From assembly GCA_030633885.1 (NCBI GenBank), contig DAOWBV010000006.1, positions 1 through 32,023 of the forward strand: a stretch of 32,023 bases of DNA. Reading direction: 5' to 3'. The number at the start of each line of letters is the position of its first letter. Position 1 is the first letter of the stretch. Source of the DNA: Planctomycetota bacterium (GTDB lineage Bacteria; Planctomycetota; MHYJ01; JACQXL01; CAKKQI01). Under the pieces are notes generated by a model. It ran no database searches. It was not told the DNA's origin and was given only the letters and a program-made list of their open reading frames with translations. The position numbers and the translations under genes were made by a program. Shown here one piece after another: positions 13,665-29,355 of this stretch.

Positions 13665-15548
13665 TTATTGTAAATATTTCTTCTTATTGGCATCCCACCA
13701 TCTTTGAATTACTTTGATCTCTTGCTTCCTGATGCTTTCCGAAGCGTGTGGCGTGAACTTAAATGACGTTTGTGTGATTTCCCACAAGGCGCCAATAGAT
13801 TTTTCCCGTACTTCTTTTTCATTATCAGCTAAAGCCAGGATTATCGTTTCAATAGACTCGGGTCGCTTTAGATAACCTAGCGAACTAATAGCTTCACCGC
13901 GAATTGATGGATTTTTATCTGTAGCTAAATTTATCAAGGCCTCGATAACCGTGCTATCATTAATATATTTTAATGTGGCCACAACCTGTCGTTTTAATTT
14001 CAGGTCATCAGATTTTAACAGTTTAAGCAACGTAGGCTTTAAAGCCGGTATTTCATCCTTAAAAGAACATATTGCTCGTAAGAAAATAGTCGTTGTTGAA
14101 TCGTCAGCTTGAGCTAATTCCTGTTTTAAATACGGTATTACCGACGGCCCAATCGAGAGTAATCGCCTCAAGTTCATAGTCCGTCTTATTTTGTCGGTAC
14201 TTTCTTTGAGTAATTGTATTTGCCTTTCAATAAGTTTTTTAGTTTCTTCAGGAGACCTTTTTTCCGGGCTCACTGTATTTTCATCCGGCGGTGATAGTTT
14301 TCCGATCAATAAACGTGGAAACCTTAACCAGGTTAAAAAGCGATAAAAATCACCGGCAAAAGTATTTTGCGCGGAAGCGATGTTTTCTTCTAATCGTTTT
14401 TCGTCGGGACTTTGATGCGTAATATGACGGGTATAAAGCCGATGCAGTCGAGCTAAACTGTCGGTTAAATTCCCCAAGTCCTGATAAAAATCGTTTAACT
14501 GCGGGGCGGAGTTACTTGACTGCAAGGATGTCAGCTGATTTTTTAATTTAGTTTCTTTTTCCGGCCAGCTTTGCGAAAATACTTCCCATGTTTCCGGGGT
14601 AATATTTCGGGCCAGGCCTTTTTGGTAACCGGCGGTCAAATCCCGATAGCACTTTTCCAGTTGCCGAAAATGATCAAGGATGATATTTTCGTCGCCGATT
14701 TGTTCTTTGAATTGAATATCGGCTTGCAAAGAAGGATAATAAAAATTAAATGCGCTGTCTATTTGAGCGACCACGCTTTCGGTTTTTATTTTTTTGCCCG
14801 TGTGAACATCCACCGTGCCACCGCGTCTCAGGTCTTTCGTCACTTGCTCGTAAATACGATAAGTCTGATAAATAAAGTCAAGGGCTAGAAAGGTCAACTC
14901 GGGGAAAAACGGGGTTAAATAATTTTCCTGTTGCGCGAGCAGGATTTTTTCGTGTTGCTTAAGATCTTTGATCATTGATTTATGAGCTTTTTTCCATGAG
15001 CGTAAATTAAATTGATAGTCTTCGCCGGCCTTGATTTTTAAATAGTTCCTCCGCAGGCCGTCATAAAAATATTTGCCGTCACCCAGGACTTCTTTTAAAA
15101 AGTCGATATTTTTCGTTCGCTCCTTTGTTATTTTTTGCGGAGTGCCGACTCGAACCGAATCAAAAATGGTTTCCGGGGGAAGCGACTGAAGTTTTTTCCT
15201 TAACGAAGCCGGCTGGCGTTTGGGATAGAAAGCAACTTCAATGTCATAGTAAGACGCCAATAACTTTTCCTTTATCCGGATTTCGGCTTCGAATTTTCCC
15301 TGCTCAACCGAAGCGCTTTTTCGGGCTAATTGCCGGCTGCGGTAACTTAATTTAATATATAATTTTGTCTTATTGGGGTAGCGCGTCCAACCGGAGATCT
15401 TGAATCCCTGGTGGCTTTCGTTTTGAAAATGAATGGTTTTTGTTTGTTTGATATAGACCGTCGCCGGGGCGAACCCGGATTCTCCGCGAACGGCGAGCAT
15501 GGTCATAAATAGAATAAGGAAACCGGTCAAAACGCGCGGTAAATTCAT
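13665..15548 (-). CDS. Exported protein with C-terminal HEAT repeats, function unknown
   Basis: N-terminal signal peptide (MNLPRVLTGFLILFMTMLAVRG); C-terminal ~35-aa helical repeats (LLKLLKSDDLKLKRQVVATLKYINDSTVIEALINLATDKNPSIRGEAISSLGYLKRPESIETIILALADNEKEVREKSIGALWEI). Confidence 0.7.
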   Translation of the reverse strand: MNLPRVLTGFLILFMTMLAVRGESGFAPATVYIKQTKTIHFQNESHQGFKISGWTRYPNKTKLYIKLSYRSRQLARKSASVEQGKFEAEIRIKEKLLASYYDIEVAFYPKRQPASLRKKLQSLPPETIFDSVRVGTPQKITKERTKNIDFLKEVLGDGKYFYDGLRRNYLKIKAGEDYQFNLRSWKKAHKSMIKDLKQHEKILLAQQENYLTPFFPELTFLALDFIYQTYRIYEQVTKDLRRGGTVDVHTGKKIKTESVVAQIDSAFNFYYPSLQADIQFKEQIGDENIILDHFRQLEKCYRDLTAGYQKGLARNITPETWEVFSQSWPEKETKLKNQLTSLQSSNSAPQLNDFYQDLGNLTDSLARLHRLYTRHITHQSPDEKRLEENIASAQNTFAGDFYRFLTWLRFPRLLIGKLSPPDENTVSPEKRSPEETKKLIERQIQLLKESTDKIRRTMNLRRLLSIGPSVIPYLKQELAQADDSTTTIFLRAICSFKDEIPALKPTLLKLLKSDDLKLKRQVVATLKYINDSTVIEALINLATDKNPSIRGEAISSLGYLKRPESIETIILALADNEKEVREKSIGALWEITQTSFKFTPHASESIRKQEIKVIQRWWDANKKKYLQ

Positions 15549-15566: not shown

Positions 15567-17183
15567 TTAATTGATAAAATAGGAAATAATTTTTGGAGAA
15601 CCGATCAAGGTTATCGTGACATCGTCCAGAATAGGCGTATCATCAATAAATCCATAAGTATTTTCTCCCGGTGGGATTAATCGGAACTGGTAATCGACCG
15701 GTGATGTTTCCGGGGCCAAGTCTATGTTTAAAGGCATTGGATCGCCGGGTTCCCAGCTTTCGTCGGCTGGTACATCAACTGGCTTCCCGTTAACCAATAG
15801 TAATTCTATTCCGCCGGTTCCATCGCTTGAATCATAATTAATTGAATTATAACTTGTCCAGTAAATATGACCCAGGCGTCTGGTTTCCTGGCTTGTCGGG
15901 TAGTCAATATTTTCCGAAAAAGTACCGGTAAATGTTCGGGGTGTATCTACATAACGATGTGGTAGAGGAAGGATTTCTGCTGCCGAAGTAAATGCTTTAT
16001 TGTATATCCGAAGGTTATCAATAGTGCCGTCGGCCGGCATGGGAAACTTATTGGTAACCGCTTCGTTTATTATTCCGGCTGCGTTTAATTTATCCGAAAA
16101 TCTATTATTCCCGATAAACATGCTCCATTCAGACTTTATTCCTTCTTGAAATGGTTTAGTGCCAACCAGCAATGGATTGCCTTCGGCTGGGAATCCGTCC
16201 ACGAAAAGTCGCAGTTCGGTTGATTCGTTCGTTACATTTTCCGACCACGTTTCCCCCGTTATTAGATTCGTCACTGTCCACGTGTCTGTCCAGGGAAGTG
16301 TTGGTTTCCAGGATAAGACAATATGATGCCAGGTGCCGGCTTGCCATTGGCCGGCTCGATCATATTTAACCACCGCGTAATCATTATAAGTAGGATGCCA
16401 CATTGCTTGGATAAATTTTTGGTACATTTCTTTTTTGTGTTTATCGGTCACAGCCATATTTGAGAATTTAAACCATCCATCATCTGTAAGCTCCTTTGGT
16501 TTAGCTGATTTATCCGTACGGGCCGAGGCCAAAAAAGCGCAGAGGGATTGTTCTCGTGCCATCAGGACGATGCGTTGAACCCCACCGTGATCTTGATAGT
16601 TTTCATCTCCTTCCCCGGCCCACCAATCTTCATTGCTTTTCTTCGTCGTATGCTTTTCGCCCGGGCCCAGACTGAACAATACCCGGCTGTCCTTTGCAAA
16701 CCATCGGTCAATCTCCCTCCCATCCCAGGTCGGTTTGAACCACATTTCTAAAGAACCGGTTAATTCAAAATTGCCCTCAGCTTTATAGCGTAAAAATTCA
16801 TCCTGACTCATATCGGTCTTATCTTCGTTATAAGTGGTTTCATGGCAAAAAACACCATCCGGGAATAATTCACTGGGATCATCATAATCGATCACCGAAC
16901 GGTCGCAATCCGCGCGTCCATAAGCTTTTTTACTATCATCAACACTGGAAGCGATCTGCGCGTCGAAAGCCTCATCATAATTTGCCTCAAAAATAACATT
17001 ACTTTTATCCGGATCAATATCCTGAGTGGCCAGAGCCAGATAGCCATCATAACAAAGCTGATGCTCGCAAACATCTTCGGTTTTGTCAATGCAATTGTTT
17101 TTAATGATTGGCCAAAGCGTATTTGTTTTTAAATCATTTGTCTTTAAATCATTAATAGATTCGGGAAAAGTTGTTAGTCCCAA
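15567..17183 (-). CDS. LamG-like (concanavalin A-type) domain region; probably the 3' part of the upstream GspK-like gene in a -1 frame
   Basis: GSLEMWFKPTW, WHHIVLSWKP, LRLFVDGFPAEGN, ADGTIDNLRIYNKAFTSAAEI. The frame stays open upstream to about 17310 and encodes pilin-K-like sequence STVVKIYDVLRHTTQKDFLQIENG. Confidence 0.7.
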   Translation of the reverse strand: MGLTTFPESINDLKTNDLKTNTLWPIIKNNCIDKTEDVCEHQLCYDGYLALATQDIDPDKSNVIFEANYDEAFDAQIASSVDDSKKAYGRADCDRSVIDYDDPSELFPDGVFCHETTYNEDKTDMSQDEFLRYKAEGNFELTGSLEMWFKPTWDGREIDRWFAKDSRVLFSLGPGEKHTTKKSNEDWWAGEGDENYQDHGGVQRIVLMAREQSLCAFLASARTDKSAKPKELTDDGWFKFSNMAVTDKHKKEMYQKFIQAMWHPTYNDYAVVKYDRAGQWQAGTWHHIVLSWKPTLPWTDTWTVTNLITGETWSENVTNESTELRLFVDGFPAEGNPLLVGTKPFQEGIKSEWSMFIGNNRFSDKLNAAGIINEAVTNKFPMPADGTIDNLRIYNKAFTSAAEILPLPHRYVDTPRTFTGTFSENIDYPTSQETRRLGHIYWTSYNSINYDSSDGTGGIELLLVNGKPVDVPADESWEPGDPMPLNIDLAPETSPVDYQFRLIPPGENTYGFIDDTPILDDVTITLIGSPKIISYFIN

Positions 17184-19045
17184 TGATTTCGGCTCATATT
17201 CACCATTTTCAATTTGGAGAAAATCTTTCTGGGTGGTATGGCGCAGAACATCATAAATTTTAACAACAGTGCTGATCTTGCTTCGGGCCAGTAATTGATG
17301 GCCGCCTTTTTGGTGACGGGACCCCAGACCCGGCCCAGAGATTCGATTTCATAGTAACCCATAGAAGAAAAACAGAACTCGGTAGTCCAGCCACAGTCTC
17401 CACTCCCTCCCGGCACCCAGTCACCGAGATCACTTTTATCGGTATCGCCGTATCTGGCTCCGAATGCTTTATTAGGATTAAATTTAGTCAAACGGGAATT
17501 CGGATTAGCGTTAACTTTAATAGCTGCTTTTTTATAGTTGGTTAAACCGACGTTCAATTCATCAATAAACTTATTAAAATCCGACCAGGAGCGAAATTGT
17601 CCCTTGTTTTTGTCTCCCCGTCTTTTTATGATTTCATCAGCAATCTTTCCGGCAATAGCAGGGCTTATAGGTCCAGTATTGCTGGTACCCCAAACACGCT
17701 TCCCGGGCCGGGTATCATTTTTGAGGTCCCGCTTTAAGTGATAACTTTGGATCTTGGTCAAAACCGCGCGCAGGACCTCCTTGGGCGCGGTATTAATATT
17801 TATTGGCGCCCGGGGCTGTAAGAGTGGAGCCGGAGTGGAGTCTGATGTAGAGGGAAGTGCTTCATCGCAAAGCTTTGGTGTAATTGGTGGCGCAGTGTCT
17901 GATTTCCAATTAGTATCCTCAAATTTAGCTGATCCAATATGCTGAAAAGTATTAATAGGATCATCGCCGCAACAGGGATAAAAAGGGATTTTGAATGAAA
18001 AGCAGTAAGGGGTGCCTCCGGTCAAAAAACCACCCGGTAAAATCGGTTGATGAGAGGCCAGTAAAACAGAGGTTTTGCCGGGTCGAGGCTCGGCCGGCAA
18101 TAGTTGAGAACGCTTATTTCTGATGTTATCGCTATGAAATGGTCGGAGCGCGCCGGGTAAAAATGTTTTCTGGTCTACCCAGGCGTGACAGGTAATAAAA
18201 TCTTTGACCCGATTATAGGCTTTTTCGGTGTAACCTTTCTTTAGTAACGCCTCTTTTACTTCTTCCCGGTTAAAAAAATTACGCCCCAGCTTAGCCCGGG
18301 CGTTACTTAAAATCTCACCGAATTTATTAATTTTGATAGACCAAATATTACCCAGATTATTTAACATGTTGACGGCATTCGGAGCTAAAGACCAATCGTC
18401 GGCTGAAACACCTGGCCCATTAATATAGATCATACTGGCGCAGTCACGTATTTTAAGGGAATAAGTATTAACACCGCCGGGATAAGCCGAAGGTAATCGG
18501 GTCGTGTAACCGATTGTATCAGGGATTTTGTCATGATTGACATCTTCAACGACCAATTCAGCGTTGTTAATATTAATTGCTTGTCCCCAGCCCTTGAGAG
18601 ATGGATAACGCATTTCTTCTAAAGGCACAAAAGATGGATAACGTGTCGTGTCGGCTGAAGGGACCTTGGGTTTAATCTTTTTGATGGCATCATTTGTTCC
18701 GGGATCAAACCGTCCGTTACTATTACTATCGGTAAACTCCAAGCCATAGAGATAAGGCGGCAGTTCGTTTTGCATTGATTCTAAATCAGGTATGTTGATT
18801 AAGCCCATTTCAACGCCGCTTTGGGCCAGGAAACGAGCGCGGGTGCTATCAACATAATTGCGGGCGACGGTTCGTTCGACCTTCGACAACGAAGCGAAAA
18901 TAACACCGAGAATGGTGAGAACAGTCAGAACAGCTAAAACCATGAGTAACACAACGCCCCGTTTTTGTTTAACCGAAACCAGCCGGGATGATGTCTGACG
19001 AAATGATTTTAATTGATTGAAAAAATTAGAGTTAAACATTTGCAT
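17174..19045 (-). CDS. GspK/PilX-like minor pseudopilin, N-terminal part (frame disrupted near 17307-17311)
   Basis: KQKRGVVLLMVLAVLTVLTILGVIFASLSKVERTVARNYVDSTRARFLAQSGVEMG; helix-hairpin-helix-like APININTAPKEVLRAVL; C-terminal YYEIESLGRVWGPVTKK then out-of-frame residues. Confidence 0.8.
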   Translation of the reverse strand: MQMFNSNFFNQLKSFRQTSSRLVSVKQKRGVVLLMVLAVLTVLTILGVIFASLSKVERTVARNYVDSTRARFLAQSGVEMGLINIPDLESMQNELPPYLYGLEFTDSNSNGRFDPGTNDAIKKIKPKVPSADTTRYPSFVPLEEMRYPSLKGWGQAININNAELVVEDVNHDKIPDTIGYTTRLPSAYPGGVNTYSLKIRDCASMIYINGPGVSADDWSLAPNAVNMLNNLGNIWSIKINKFGEILSNARAKLGRNFFNREEVKEALLKKGYTEKAYNRVKDFITCHAWVDQKTFLPGALRPFHSDNIRNKRSQLLPAEPRPGKTSVLLASHQPILPGGFLTGGTPYCFSFKIPFYPCCGDDPINTFQHIGSAKFEDTNWKSDTAPPITPKLCDEALPSTSDSTPAPLLQPRAPININTAPKEVLRAVLTKIQSYHLKRDLKNDTRPGKRVWGTSNTGPISPAIAGKIADEIIKRRGDKNKGQFRSWSDFNKFIDELNVGLTNYKKAAIKVNANPNSRLTKFNPNKAFGARYGDTDKSDLGDWVPGGSGDCGWTTEFCFSSMGYYEIESLGRVWGPVTKKAAINYWPEARSALLLKFMMFCAIPPRKIFSKLKMVNMSRNHWD

Positions 19046-19288: not shown

Positions 19289-20671
19289 TTATTCAGGGTC
19301 GATTATACCTGTGCCGTTACATTCAGCGCAATTAACATCACCCTGGCCGTTACAAGTTGGGCAAATGACTGTAAGTTCTTTAGTGCCGTCGCACTCCGGG
19401 CAGTTTATTCGTCCGGTCCCCTGGCACGCGTGGTCTTCTACTTTACCGTCTCCCTGACAAGAGGGGCATTCCTGTTGTTTGTCGCCATTACAGGTAGGGC
19501 AAGTTTGAGTAACCTGGCCGGTTGCGGCACAGATGGGACAACTTTTTGATAGCTGGCCTTGGCCGTTACAGGTGGGGCACTTTGTTTTTCGGCGAGTAGC
19601 AAAGTTTAAAGTGTGCCCTGCTCCCATACAATCAGGGCAGTCTTCAATCTGGGTGCCGGTACCGCTACAATCAGCACAGGCTTCTGTCGTTGTGCCAGTA
19701 CCCCCACAGTCCGTACAAGAAACATCTCCGTCGCCGCCACATCTCCCGCAAGTTATTTCGCCGGTGGTATCACAGTTACTGTGGTCAACAACGCCGTTTT
19801 CATCGCAATTTTCACACGGTTCGATCAGTTCACCGTCGCCTTCGCACTCTTCACAAGAGACAACGCCGTTGCCTGTGCATACAGGGCAATCAGCGGCCGG
19901 GTCCGGGTCCGGGTCCGGGTCTGGATCTGGATCCGGGCTTGGGCCTAGGTCTGGGTCCGGGTCTGGGTCTGGGTCCGGATCCGGGTCTGGGTTATTTAGT
20001 GGGGGTTGGAACGGATCAGGCGGCGGTGGTGGCGGCGGTGGCGGTGGTGGCGGCGGTGGTGGCGGGGGCGGAGCCAGTTTTAGCGGTATCTCATTAAATT
20101 TCCAATTATTAATATCATCATCTTTAGAACTATAATCTCTGTTAGCTACTGTATTCGGACCAAAGGACTCCAGATCAAAGGAAAATGTATTATTACGTCC
20201 ATGGGGTTCCCTCCAAAGCGGGTCCCCACCGGTCATAACTGTATAGTCAGCCCCGGGATTTTTATAAACGATTCGTTGATCCCAGGAATCGATCACGTAT
20301 TTTTGGTCATCAAGGTTTTTTCTTTGCAGAGTAAGAGGGGCGGTGAACTTTTTACCGACTGAATTTTTGACCAGGGAAAGTTCATCAAATCCTGTTTTTG
20401 ATCCGGTGTCCAGTTTTCGCGATAAAAAATAATAAAGATTTTGCGAACCATTATATTTGCCTTCACTGGGAGGATAAACTAGAAACTCGGCCTTGTAACT
20501 GTTAAGCGCGATTTCAAGTTTATGGATCAAAATACGAGTGGCTTTACTTTTGGCGTTGTCAGTGAATGAAGTCAAAGCAACCACGGTAATCGTGGCTAAA
20601 ATCAAAATAACGGCAAAGACGACTAACAATTCAAGCAGGGTAAAACCGGATGATTTTCGAGTAGTATTCAT
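19289..20671 (-). CDS. GspG-like prepilin/pseudopilin with poly-Pro/(PD)n stalk and CxxCxGxG zinc-finger-like repeat tail
   Basis: Prepilin N-terminus SSGFTLLELLVVFAVILILATITVVAL; pseudopilin core (SWDQRIVYKNPGADYTVMTGG); P x18; (PD)n; 14 CxxC plus 2 degenerate units with G-x-G spacing. Confidence 0.88.
   Translation of the reverse strand: MNTTRKSSGFTLLELLVVFAVILILATITVVALTSFTDNAKSKATRILIHKLEIALNSYKAEFLVYPPSEGKYNGSQNLYYFLSRKLDTGSKTGFDELSLVKNSVGKKFTAPLTLQRKNLDDQKYVIDSWDQRIVYKNPGADYTVMTGGDPLWREPHGRNNTFSFDLESFGPNTVANRDYSSKDDDINNWKFNEIPLKLAPPPPPPPPPPPPPPPPPPDPFQPPLNNPDPDPDPDPDPDPDLGPSPDPDPDPDPDPDPAADCPVCTGNGVVSCEECEGDGELIEPCENCDENGVVDHSNCDTTGEITCGRCGGDGDVSCTDCGGTGTTTEACADCSGTGTQIEDCPDCMGAGHTLNFATRRKTKCPTCNGQGQLSKSCPICAATGQVTQTCPTCNGDKQQECPSCQGDGKVEDHACQGTGRINCPECDGTKELTVICPTCNGQGDVNCAECNGTGIIDPE
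19899..19992. repeat. Hexanucleotide (GGGTCY) tandem repeat encoding (Pro-Asp)n
   Basis: Tandem gggtcc/gggtct/ggatcc units on + strand. Confidence 0.85.
20018..20071. repeat. Trinucleotide tract encoding 18 consecutive prolines (minus strand)
   Basis: 18 CCN codons read on the minus strand, mixed CCG/CCA/CCC/CCT. Confidence 0.9.
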
Positions 20672-26859: not shown

Positions 26860-27417
26860 ATGGACCTGAAAAAAATAGAAAAATCCGTTAAGTTATTTCT
26901 GGAAGGTATCGGCGAAAATCCTGATCGGGACGGACTAAAAGAAACACCCCGGCGGGTAGCCCGGATGTGTCAGGAGCTGTACGCGGGCCTGAAGGGTGAC
27001 CCGAAACAGGTGATCAAAGCGCTTGTCGGACACGATCACGATGAGATCGTTCTGGTTAAAGACATCCCCTTTTTTTCCGTTTGCGAACACCATCTTTTGC
27101 CTTTTGTCGGTAAAGCCCACGTGGCCTATTTGCCGAAAGGCGGCCGGGTCAGCGGTATCAGTAAATTAGCCCGGGTGGTTGAAATGCATTCTAAAAGACC
27201 GCAGGTTCAGGAAAGGCTTAGTACCGGTATCGCGGAAACCATTATGACGGCCTTAAAACCTCAGGGGGTAATGGTGGTGATCGAGGCCGAACATCTTTGC
27301 ATGACTATTCGAGGTGTCAAAAGACCCGGGACGAAGATCGTTACTTCCGTGGTCCGCGGTATTTTCCGTCGTAACCCGGCAACCCGGGCCGAAGCCATGT
27401 CATTGCTTTATCATTGA
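26860..27417 (+). CDS. folE: GTP cyclohydrolase I
   Basis: [89 protein letters not shown]. Confidence 0.95.
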
Positions 27418-27979
27418 TCCAGATATTTTTTTAACAGATTTCTTAATCGCCGGATGGCTTTGACCATACGCGTTTTGACGGTTACTTCAGCGATATCCAA
27501 AATTTCGGCGATCTCGCGATATTTCAGATCTTGATATTCACTTAAAACAAAAACGATCCTTTCTTTTTCCGGTAAGGATTAGATGGCTTTCCGCACTTCC
27601 TGAATTTGTTCTCTTTTTAATAAATTTTTCGACGCCTCTCCGGTCGGATCAGTCGTAATATCCGAGACCGGCTGACTGTCTGTTTTTTGGTCTAAAACAC
27701 TGAAAGTCACCGGTTTTTTCTTTAATCGTTTAGCTTCATTAAACCAATGATTTTTCGCGATCGTGAAAAGATACGTTAAAAATTTAGCGGTTGGTTGATA
27801 TGACGCGCGTTTCTGCCAGATCCGGAGGAATACTTCATGAACAGCATCTTCAACCAAGCTGGGTTGACCGCTCAAGCGGTAAAAAAATTCGCCAGCGGGT
27901 TCTTATAGTGATCATATAATTTTTTAAAAGCACTGTGATCACCGGTTTTGACTTGAAGTATTAATTCCTGGTCATTCAT
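27411..27979 (-). pseudogene. ECF-type RNA polymerase sigma factor gene, disrupted by a frameshift and an in-frame stop
   Basis: MNDQELILQVKTGDHSAFKKLYDHYKNPLANFF / (frameshift at T7) / YRLSGQPSLVEDAVHEVFLRIWQKRASY...[61 protein letters not shown]. Confidence 0.85.
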
Positions 27980-27987
27980 TGGATCGC

Positions 27988-29355
27988 TTAACCCACCTCA
28001 TTATAAACCCGGGCTCGGAAATCGATTCCCAGGTCCCGGGCGAGCTGGCGGCATTTTTCCAAATCGACATTCGGGTAGGTGACCGTTGTTATCTGAACGC
28101 AAGGAATGTTTTCTTTGGCTTCTTTAATGAATTGAATGACTTGATTAAAAGTATCCGGGCCGAACTTGGGCCGGCAGATCTGCTGGTATTGTTCCGCCGT
28201 CGGGGCGTTCAGACTGACAACGATCTCGTCGACTAATCCTTTTAATTCCGGAAGGATCGAACGCTGATTGATCAAATTACCGTGTCCGTTAGTATTTAAA
28301 CGGACGTGGATATTTTTCTTCTTTAGATAACCGGCGATTTCTTTAATGATATCCAGGCGCAAAGTCGGTTCTCCGTAACCGCAAAAGACTACTTCTTTAT
28401 ACGGGCTGAGATCGCTGATTGCTTGAATAATTTCCTCTTTACTTGGATCCTGCGCCAGGCGAAGGTTGTGTCCCTTAACATAATCGGTTGATTGCCTGAT
28501 GCAAAAAGTGCAGGTGGCGGTGCACTGATTGGTGATGTTAAGATAGAGGGAATCGCGGATATTATAAGCGATCTGGCCCTGGTTGGGTATTTTACCCAGG
28601 CCGAACAAACGACGGGCATTAAGAGTGGTGATCCGTTTAATATCGTCAACTGACAGGTCGTAAAGGTCCGCGAAAGCTTGTACAGAATAAGTCAAATAAG
28701 CCGGTTCATTACGTTGACCACGTTTAGCCTGGGGGGTCAGAAAAGGGCAGTCGGTTTCCAGCATCAGGTTTTCGACTTTGATACTTTTGATCGTTTTCCG
28801 TAATTGATCGGCTTTGGGGAAAGTTATCGGTCCGCCCGCCGAAATCAAAAAACCTAATTTTAAATACTGTCGGGCTGTTTCAGCGGTACCGGAAAAACAA
28901 TGGGCAACGCCTTTAACCTTCGAACCCATCACTTTTTTGATGATGGCCAGGCAATCTTCGTGTGCTTCCCGGCTATGGATAACGATCGGTTTGTTTTTTC
29001 GGCGGGCGATTTCGAGTTGTTTAATAAAAACTTTTTTTTGGTCCTCACGGGGGCTGATATTTTTGTAAAAATCAAGTCCGATCTCGCCGACGGCGACGAC
29101 TTTATCTTCGTCAACCAGTTTTTCCAATTCCGTCCAGTCAGATTCTTTGATATTAGCCGCGTCATGGGGATGAATGCCGACGGCGGCGTAAATATGATCG
29201 TAACGGCGGGCCAACTCGATGGATTCCCGGCTGGTGGCTAAACTGGTCCCGATGTTAATAATGGTTCCTACCCCGGCTTGGGTTGCCCGTTCTAACACGG
29301 CGGGCAGATCATTTTTGTAATCAGGAAAATTAAGATGGGCGTGGGTGTCGATCAT
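27988..29355 (-). CDS. TatD family hydrolase fused to a TatD-associated radical SAM domain
   Basis: N-term MIDTHAHLNFPDY, VGIHPHDA, VGEIGLDFYKN, PIVIHSREA, HCFSG, LETDCPFLTP (TatD); C-term SLYLNITNQCTATCTFCIRQ (CxxxCxxC), VVFCGYGEPTLR (radical SAM). Confidence 0.92.
   Translation of the reverse strand: MIDTHAHLNFPDYKNDLPAVLERATQAGVGTIINIGTSLATSRESIELARRYDHIYAAVGIHPHDAANIKESDWTELEKLVDEDKVVAVGEIGLDFYKNISPREDQKKVFIKQLEIARRKNKPIVIHSREAHEDCLAIIKKVMGSKVKGVAHCFSGTAETARQYLKLGFLISAGGPITFPKADQLRKTIKSIKVENLMLETDCPFLTPQAKRGQRNEPAYLTYSVQAFADLYDLSVDDIKRITTLNARRLFGLGKIPNQGQIAYNIRDSLYLNITNQCTATCTFCIRQSTDYVKGHNLRLAQDPSKEEIIQAISDLSPYKEVVFCGYGEPTLRLDIIKEIAGYLKKKNIHVRLNTNGHGNLINQRSILPELKGLVDEIVVSLNAPTAEQYQQICRPKFGPDTFNQVIQFIKEAKENIPCVQITTVTYPNVDLEKCRQLARDLGIDFRARVYNEVG

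Follow-up and report, generated by a model that had tools for sequence, protein, structure and literature searches.

PilC of Streptococcus sanguinis is a modular type IV pilin whose ConA-like lectin module binds glycans, and PF13385 is listed among the common modules grafted on pilins (PMC8179133, PMC9934059). A pseudopilin with a ConA/LamG-like end is an already known design. The locus described here lies in a window of 32,023 nucleotides, the whole stretch of DNA analysed, which corresponds to the whole of contig C240 in a draft genome of 241 contigs (2.04 Mb, 94% complete). Like PilC, it encodes a probable pilin-type N-terminus joined to a module of the ConA/LamG type (PF13385 class) for filament display. 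Unlike the PilC type, which is a small pilin with an N-methylation motif, the carrier here is a large GspK/PilX-like half of about 580 codons, full-length proteins reach about 1,000–1,200 residues, and binding is putative. The locus resembles GspK, the minor pseudopilin of type II secretion systems (3ci0_K), in having helical regions and a weak match at sequence level (PF03934, NF037980), but its product is much longer, has an added LamG-like half, and all of its matches fall under curated cut-offs. Verru_Chthon cassette protein A (TIGR02600), also giant at 1,296 positions, is similar over the first 51 residues; however, the match involves only the N-terminal helix, at 27.5 bits where the cut-off is 332.

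In the assembly, the two halves occupy separate reading frames (Table 1). They very probably form a single modular pseudopilin gene of about 1,160 codons, with an unprogrammed break caused by the loss of one A (A6 to A5), either as an error or as a private deletion. The minus strand at the tract reads GGT CCC GTC ACC AAA AAG GCG GCC ATC, and the -1 frame at this point produces KGGHQLLARSKISTVVKIYDVLRHTTQKDF. An ORF check of the window finds the tail frame open upstream up to and beyond the tract. VKIYDVLRHTTQKDF, read from the -1 frame, matches the orthologs in the two nearest relatives, G001 and G007, letter for letter, whereas the 44 original-frame codons 3' of the tract diverge from these orthologs, which keep the other frame. 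Judged from these alignments, the off-frame 44-codon end is not part of the ancestral protein. A coding-potential frame-switch scan of 484 kb (63 stretches, window included) gave the junction a gain of 33.3; chance is excluded, since this is among the two strongest switches that lack a start codon in the downstream frame.

Table 1. Coordinates of the split pseudopilin gene, its neighbours and related loci. Positions without a locus label refer to the window.
Feature	Position	Strand	Size or remark
Head ORF, GspK/PilX-like pseudopilin	17174-19045	minus	623 aa
Tail ORF, LamG-like	15567-17183	minus	538 aa counted from TTG
Head of gene: probable N-terminal pilin-type helix and GspK-like helical (SAM-like) region	17306..19045	minus	580 codons, A5 tract included
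A5 tract, site of frame break	17307..17311	minus	DNA alignment with G001, which has A6
Off-frame 3' end of head ORF	17174..17305	minus	44 codons including stop; low coding potential in frame
Tail of gene, -1 frame: linker and ConA/LamG-like (Laminin_G_3) region	15567..17306	minus	stop at 15567
Upstream gene, GspG-like pilin	19289..20671	minus	N_methyl and DnaJ_CXXCXGXG over Pfam cut-offs
Downstream partner gene: secreted-looking N-terminus and HEAT repeats	13665..15548	minus	HEAT_2
HEAT-partner phmmer match	L036 8249-9085
HEAT-partner phmmer match	L037 11229-13394
HEAT-partner phmmer match	L040 7825-9747
HEAT-partner phmmer match	L039 8002-10821
Paralogous giant pseudopilin with finger pairs	L007:6786-9929
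Paralogous giant pseudopilin with finger pairs	L041:4434-7496

Comparison with relatives locates the break. G001, a member of the same family and the nearest relative among the genomes compared (contig titled 'Candidatus Brocadiaceae bacterium', Hainich groundwater), carries the ortholog as a single unbroken ORF of 1075 codons (G001:C365, L035), with 61% identity in the head over 525 codons and 55% in the tail. Its site reads GTG ACT AAA AAA GGC GGA against GTC ACC AAA AAG GCG GCC in the window, and aligning the DNA on either side leaves one internal one-base gap, at the A run. An earlier note, made from the window alone, had proposed that the GspK-like and LamG-like ORFs are one gene with a -1 shift at this very tract and that the downstream frame is the ancestral one; the unbroken ortholog, with one A more in the same tract, and the frame kept in both relatives bear this out. 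The note had also suggested checking by ortholog alignment whether A5 is conserved. It is not: G001 has A6, and the ortholog in G007, also unbroken (1020 codons), has ACG GCG CAA GGG TTT and no A run at the site, a judgement drawn from few close sequences, namely one close ortholog (61% in the head) and the next at 52%.

The unbroken form is widespread. Two paralogs in the same genome, on contig C85, are intact (970 and 1048 codons), and head and tail HMM matches lie in one frame in 29 of 39 homologous ORFs, most of the others ending at a locus, contig or fetched-stretch boundary. A contig search using the head alone found no relatives; an alignment-based search returned ten loci, and further matches are mostly to Planctomycetota groundwater MAGs. 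Within this planctomycete class, relatives carry several giant pseudopilins of the GspK-like type that end in LamG-like regions. Both halves are constrained to a similar degree: pN/pS against G001 is 0.38 for the head, 0.42 for the tail and 0.33 for the first 100 tail codons, and in each half substitutions fall mostly on third codon positions. This equality indicates that the gene was broken recently or is not truly broken. From the substitution pattern, a tail that had long been dead would not look so, and a recent death would be invisible at dS near 1.8.

The earlier note had left three explanations for the break: a real indel, a homopolymer error, or programmed recoding at C_AAA_AAG (-1 ribosomal frameshifting or transcriptional slippage), by which a short pseudopilin would be made alongside a long form tipped with LamG. 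The last is extremely improbable. As in dnaX, IS911 and IS1222, the direction is -1 and A_AAG lies at the switch; IS1222 uses this tetramer for its -1 shift (PMC5009743). It is a minimal -1 shift tetramer (Z_ZZN), so some background shifting is possible at the site, and the open tail frame spans the tract. However, C_AAA_AAG falls outside the highly shifty heptamers (A_AAA_AAG, C_CCA_AAG, G_GGA_AAG), which leaves only the tetramer on offer, and the site has neither an X_XXY_YYZ heptamer nor a tetramer with a stimulator, whether SD-like or a 3' structure. The fold downstream is not unusually stable (z -0.13), and its first stem begins without a spacer. For RNA polymerase, efficient slippage has been described at runs of 9 A or T; at T5C5 it is undetectable without context features (PMC5009743). 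A tRNA pattern search for the lysine set saw only tRNA-Asn among the loci checked. Unlike the three known systems, this one offers no conserved site, strong heptamer or stimulator, and its relatives are in frame: neither a conserved shift site nor a split frame recurs across orthologs, and G001, G007, both paralogs and the 29 homologs need no shift. On these comparisons programmed frameshifting or slippage has no support and is refuted by the unbroken orthologs, the outcome that the earlier note had itself named as decisive; a real indel or a homopolymer/consensus error stands as the remaining choice.

Two further rival readings can be weighed. The ORFs could be separate genes, a complete 623-residue pseudopilin and an independent LamG protein starting from TTG 17183, given that both are long and that this TTG overlaps the end of the first ORF in a layout that could allow translational coupling. 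The reading is almost certainly wrong: the tail frame is conserved upstream of the TTG right to the tract, no in-frame start lies close to the switch, the tail alone would begin without a pilin helix or signal peptide, and the orthologs are single ORFs. Alternatively, the locus could be phase variable, with the A5/A6 run switching production of the LamG end within the population. In the closest pair the run does differ in length by a single A, and other family members bear lesions (a G001 paralog has an in-frame TAA, and homologs in G004 and G022 have stops), but those lesions lie elsewhere and are not slippage-type changes, and the run is short and is not conserved in G007. Such a contingency locus is very unlikely. 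Taken more broadly, a slippage switch at the A5/A6 run, acting through phase variation or low-level recoding so that pseudopilin tips are made both with the LamG end and without it, in a lineage that has several tip proteins of this kind, is likewise very unlikely. An accidental break in a single gene remains the preferred reading.

Whether the lost A is an artefact or a real mutation is more evenly balanced. The scan returned two strong start-less switches in 484 kb, the pseudopilin junction and one in a PAS-domain gene (L117:8351). The PAS-domain gene, on the minus strand of L117 near 8351, shows an apparent one-base loss near GAAAATTACTGGG. An ECF sigma factor gene in the window (27411-27997, minus strand) is broken twice, by an apparent one-base loss at a T7 run (27881-27887) and by an in-frame TAA (27579-27581), and its homologs stay open over 197 codons in G003 and 190 codons in G005. 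Of simulated deletions, the scan recovered between 36% (at a gain above 20) and 59% (at a gain above 8); therefore, perhaps five to eight of some 500 genes are truly affected, and about 1% of the genes in this assembly look frameshifted. In Illumina metagenome contigs, homopolymer errors have been reported in 0.32–1.02% of genes, and any single-base error in about 3% (PMC3277595). The lesion rate here is in line with the published consensus-error rate, which is for Illumina and may not be this assembly's platform. Consensus error thus suffices as an explanation, and the nonsense codon in the sigma gene suggests that some lesions may be real. The A5/A6 run is short for either sequencing or replication slippage. 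On balance, consensus error is slightly favoured over deletion, and a real recent deletion private to the lineage or strain is the somewhat less probable choice; in that event the LamG end would not be made. The break itself is of little consequence. It removes a candidate recoding site and illustrates that draft assemblies of this kind have about 1% of their genes split, and the intact form is worth annotating as one protein.

At the sequence level, the N-terminal half resembles PilX/GspK, with matches under the curated cut-offs. In Pfam the head scores 25.4 bits against a cut-off of 25.5 for PilX_N and 18.7 against 24.2 for T2SSK (PF03934), and it reaches 31.3 against 130 for the GspK model NF037980; the G001 ortholog is also below threshold for T2SSK (23.2 against 24.2). 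A PDB sequence search with the head profile gave no match. The AlphaFold models are of low confidence (mean pLDDT 45 for the head and 44 for the tail). The head model, of low confidence overall, shows one long helix at residues 27-75, and its only PDB fold match is GspK 3ci0_K (E=1.2). In the tail, Laminin_G_3 matches with E=4.6e-5 and 24.0 bits, under the cut-off of 27.6. The G001 ortholog exceeds this cut-off, at 37.7 bits, in the same ORF as the head, and the domain is present in all six of the unbroken homologs scanned with Pfam. A ConA/LamG-like domain and the head thereby share one polypeptide in the orthologs, whereas in the window the frames are split. The best fold matches of the tail are clostridial neurotoxin binding domains and laminin G, at query TM <=0.25, and are used here only as far as 'jelly-roll, ConA-like'.

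These features suggest how the intact protein may work. After processing, the GspK/PilX-like N-terminal half would become part of a type II secretion or type IV-type filament, probably at its tip, and the C-terminal ConA/LamG-like half would be displayed outside, where it most likely binds a glycan or other surface ligand; in this assembly, the frame would have been broken by one A lost from a six-A run. Giant GspK-like pseudopilins with LamG-like ends are likely a large, poorly described set of filament-tip adhesins.

The genomic setting includes further pilus-type components. The genome has 10 PilB/GspE-type ATPase matches and 6 secretin matches. The downstream partner gene has phmmer homologs directly downstream of the giant ORF in relatives (Table 1). 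The upstream GspG-like pilin continues into polyproline and DP-repeat linkers and then numerous DnaJ-type CxxCxGxG zinc-finger motifs. In G001, a homolog that matches this finger region sits beside the giant ORF (G001:C365 3336-4595), with the gene order of the window. DnaJ-type zinc fingers are an odd module for an exported pilin. In both G000 and G001, a paralogous giant pseudopilin also carries CxxCxGxG-type finger pairs (CFYCQGRGKV...CPRCDG), placed inside its LamG-like half; in the G001 copy, an in-frame TAA lies upstream of them. Elsewhere in the window, a TatD-type DNase and a radical SAM domain are fused in one minus-strand ORF (27988-29355).
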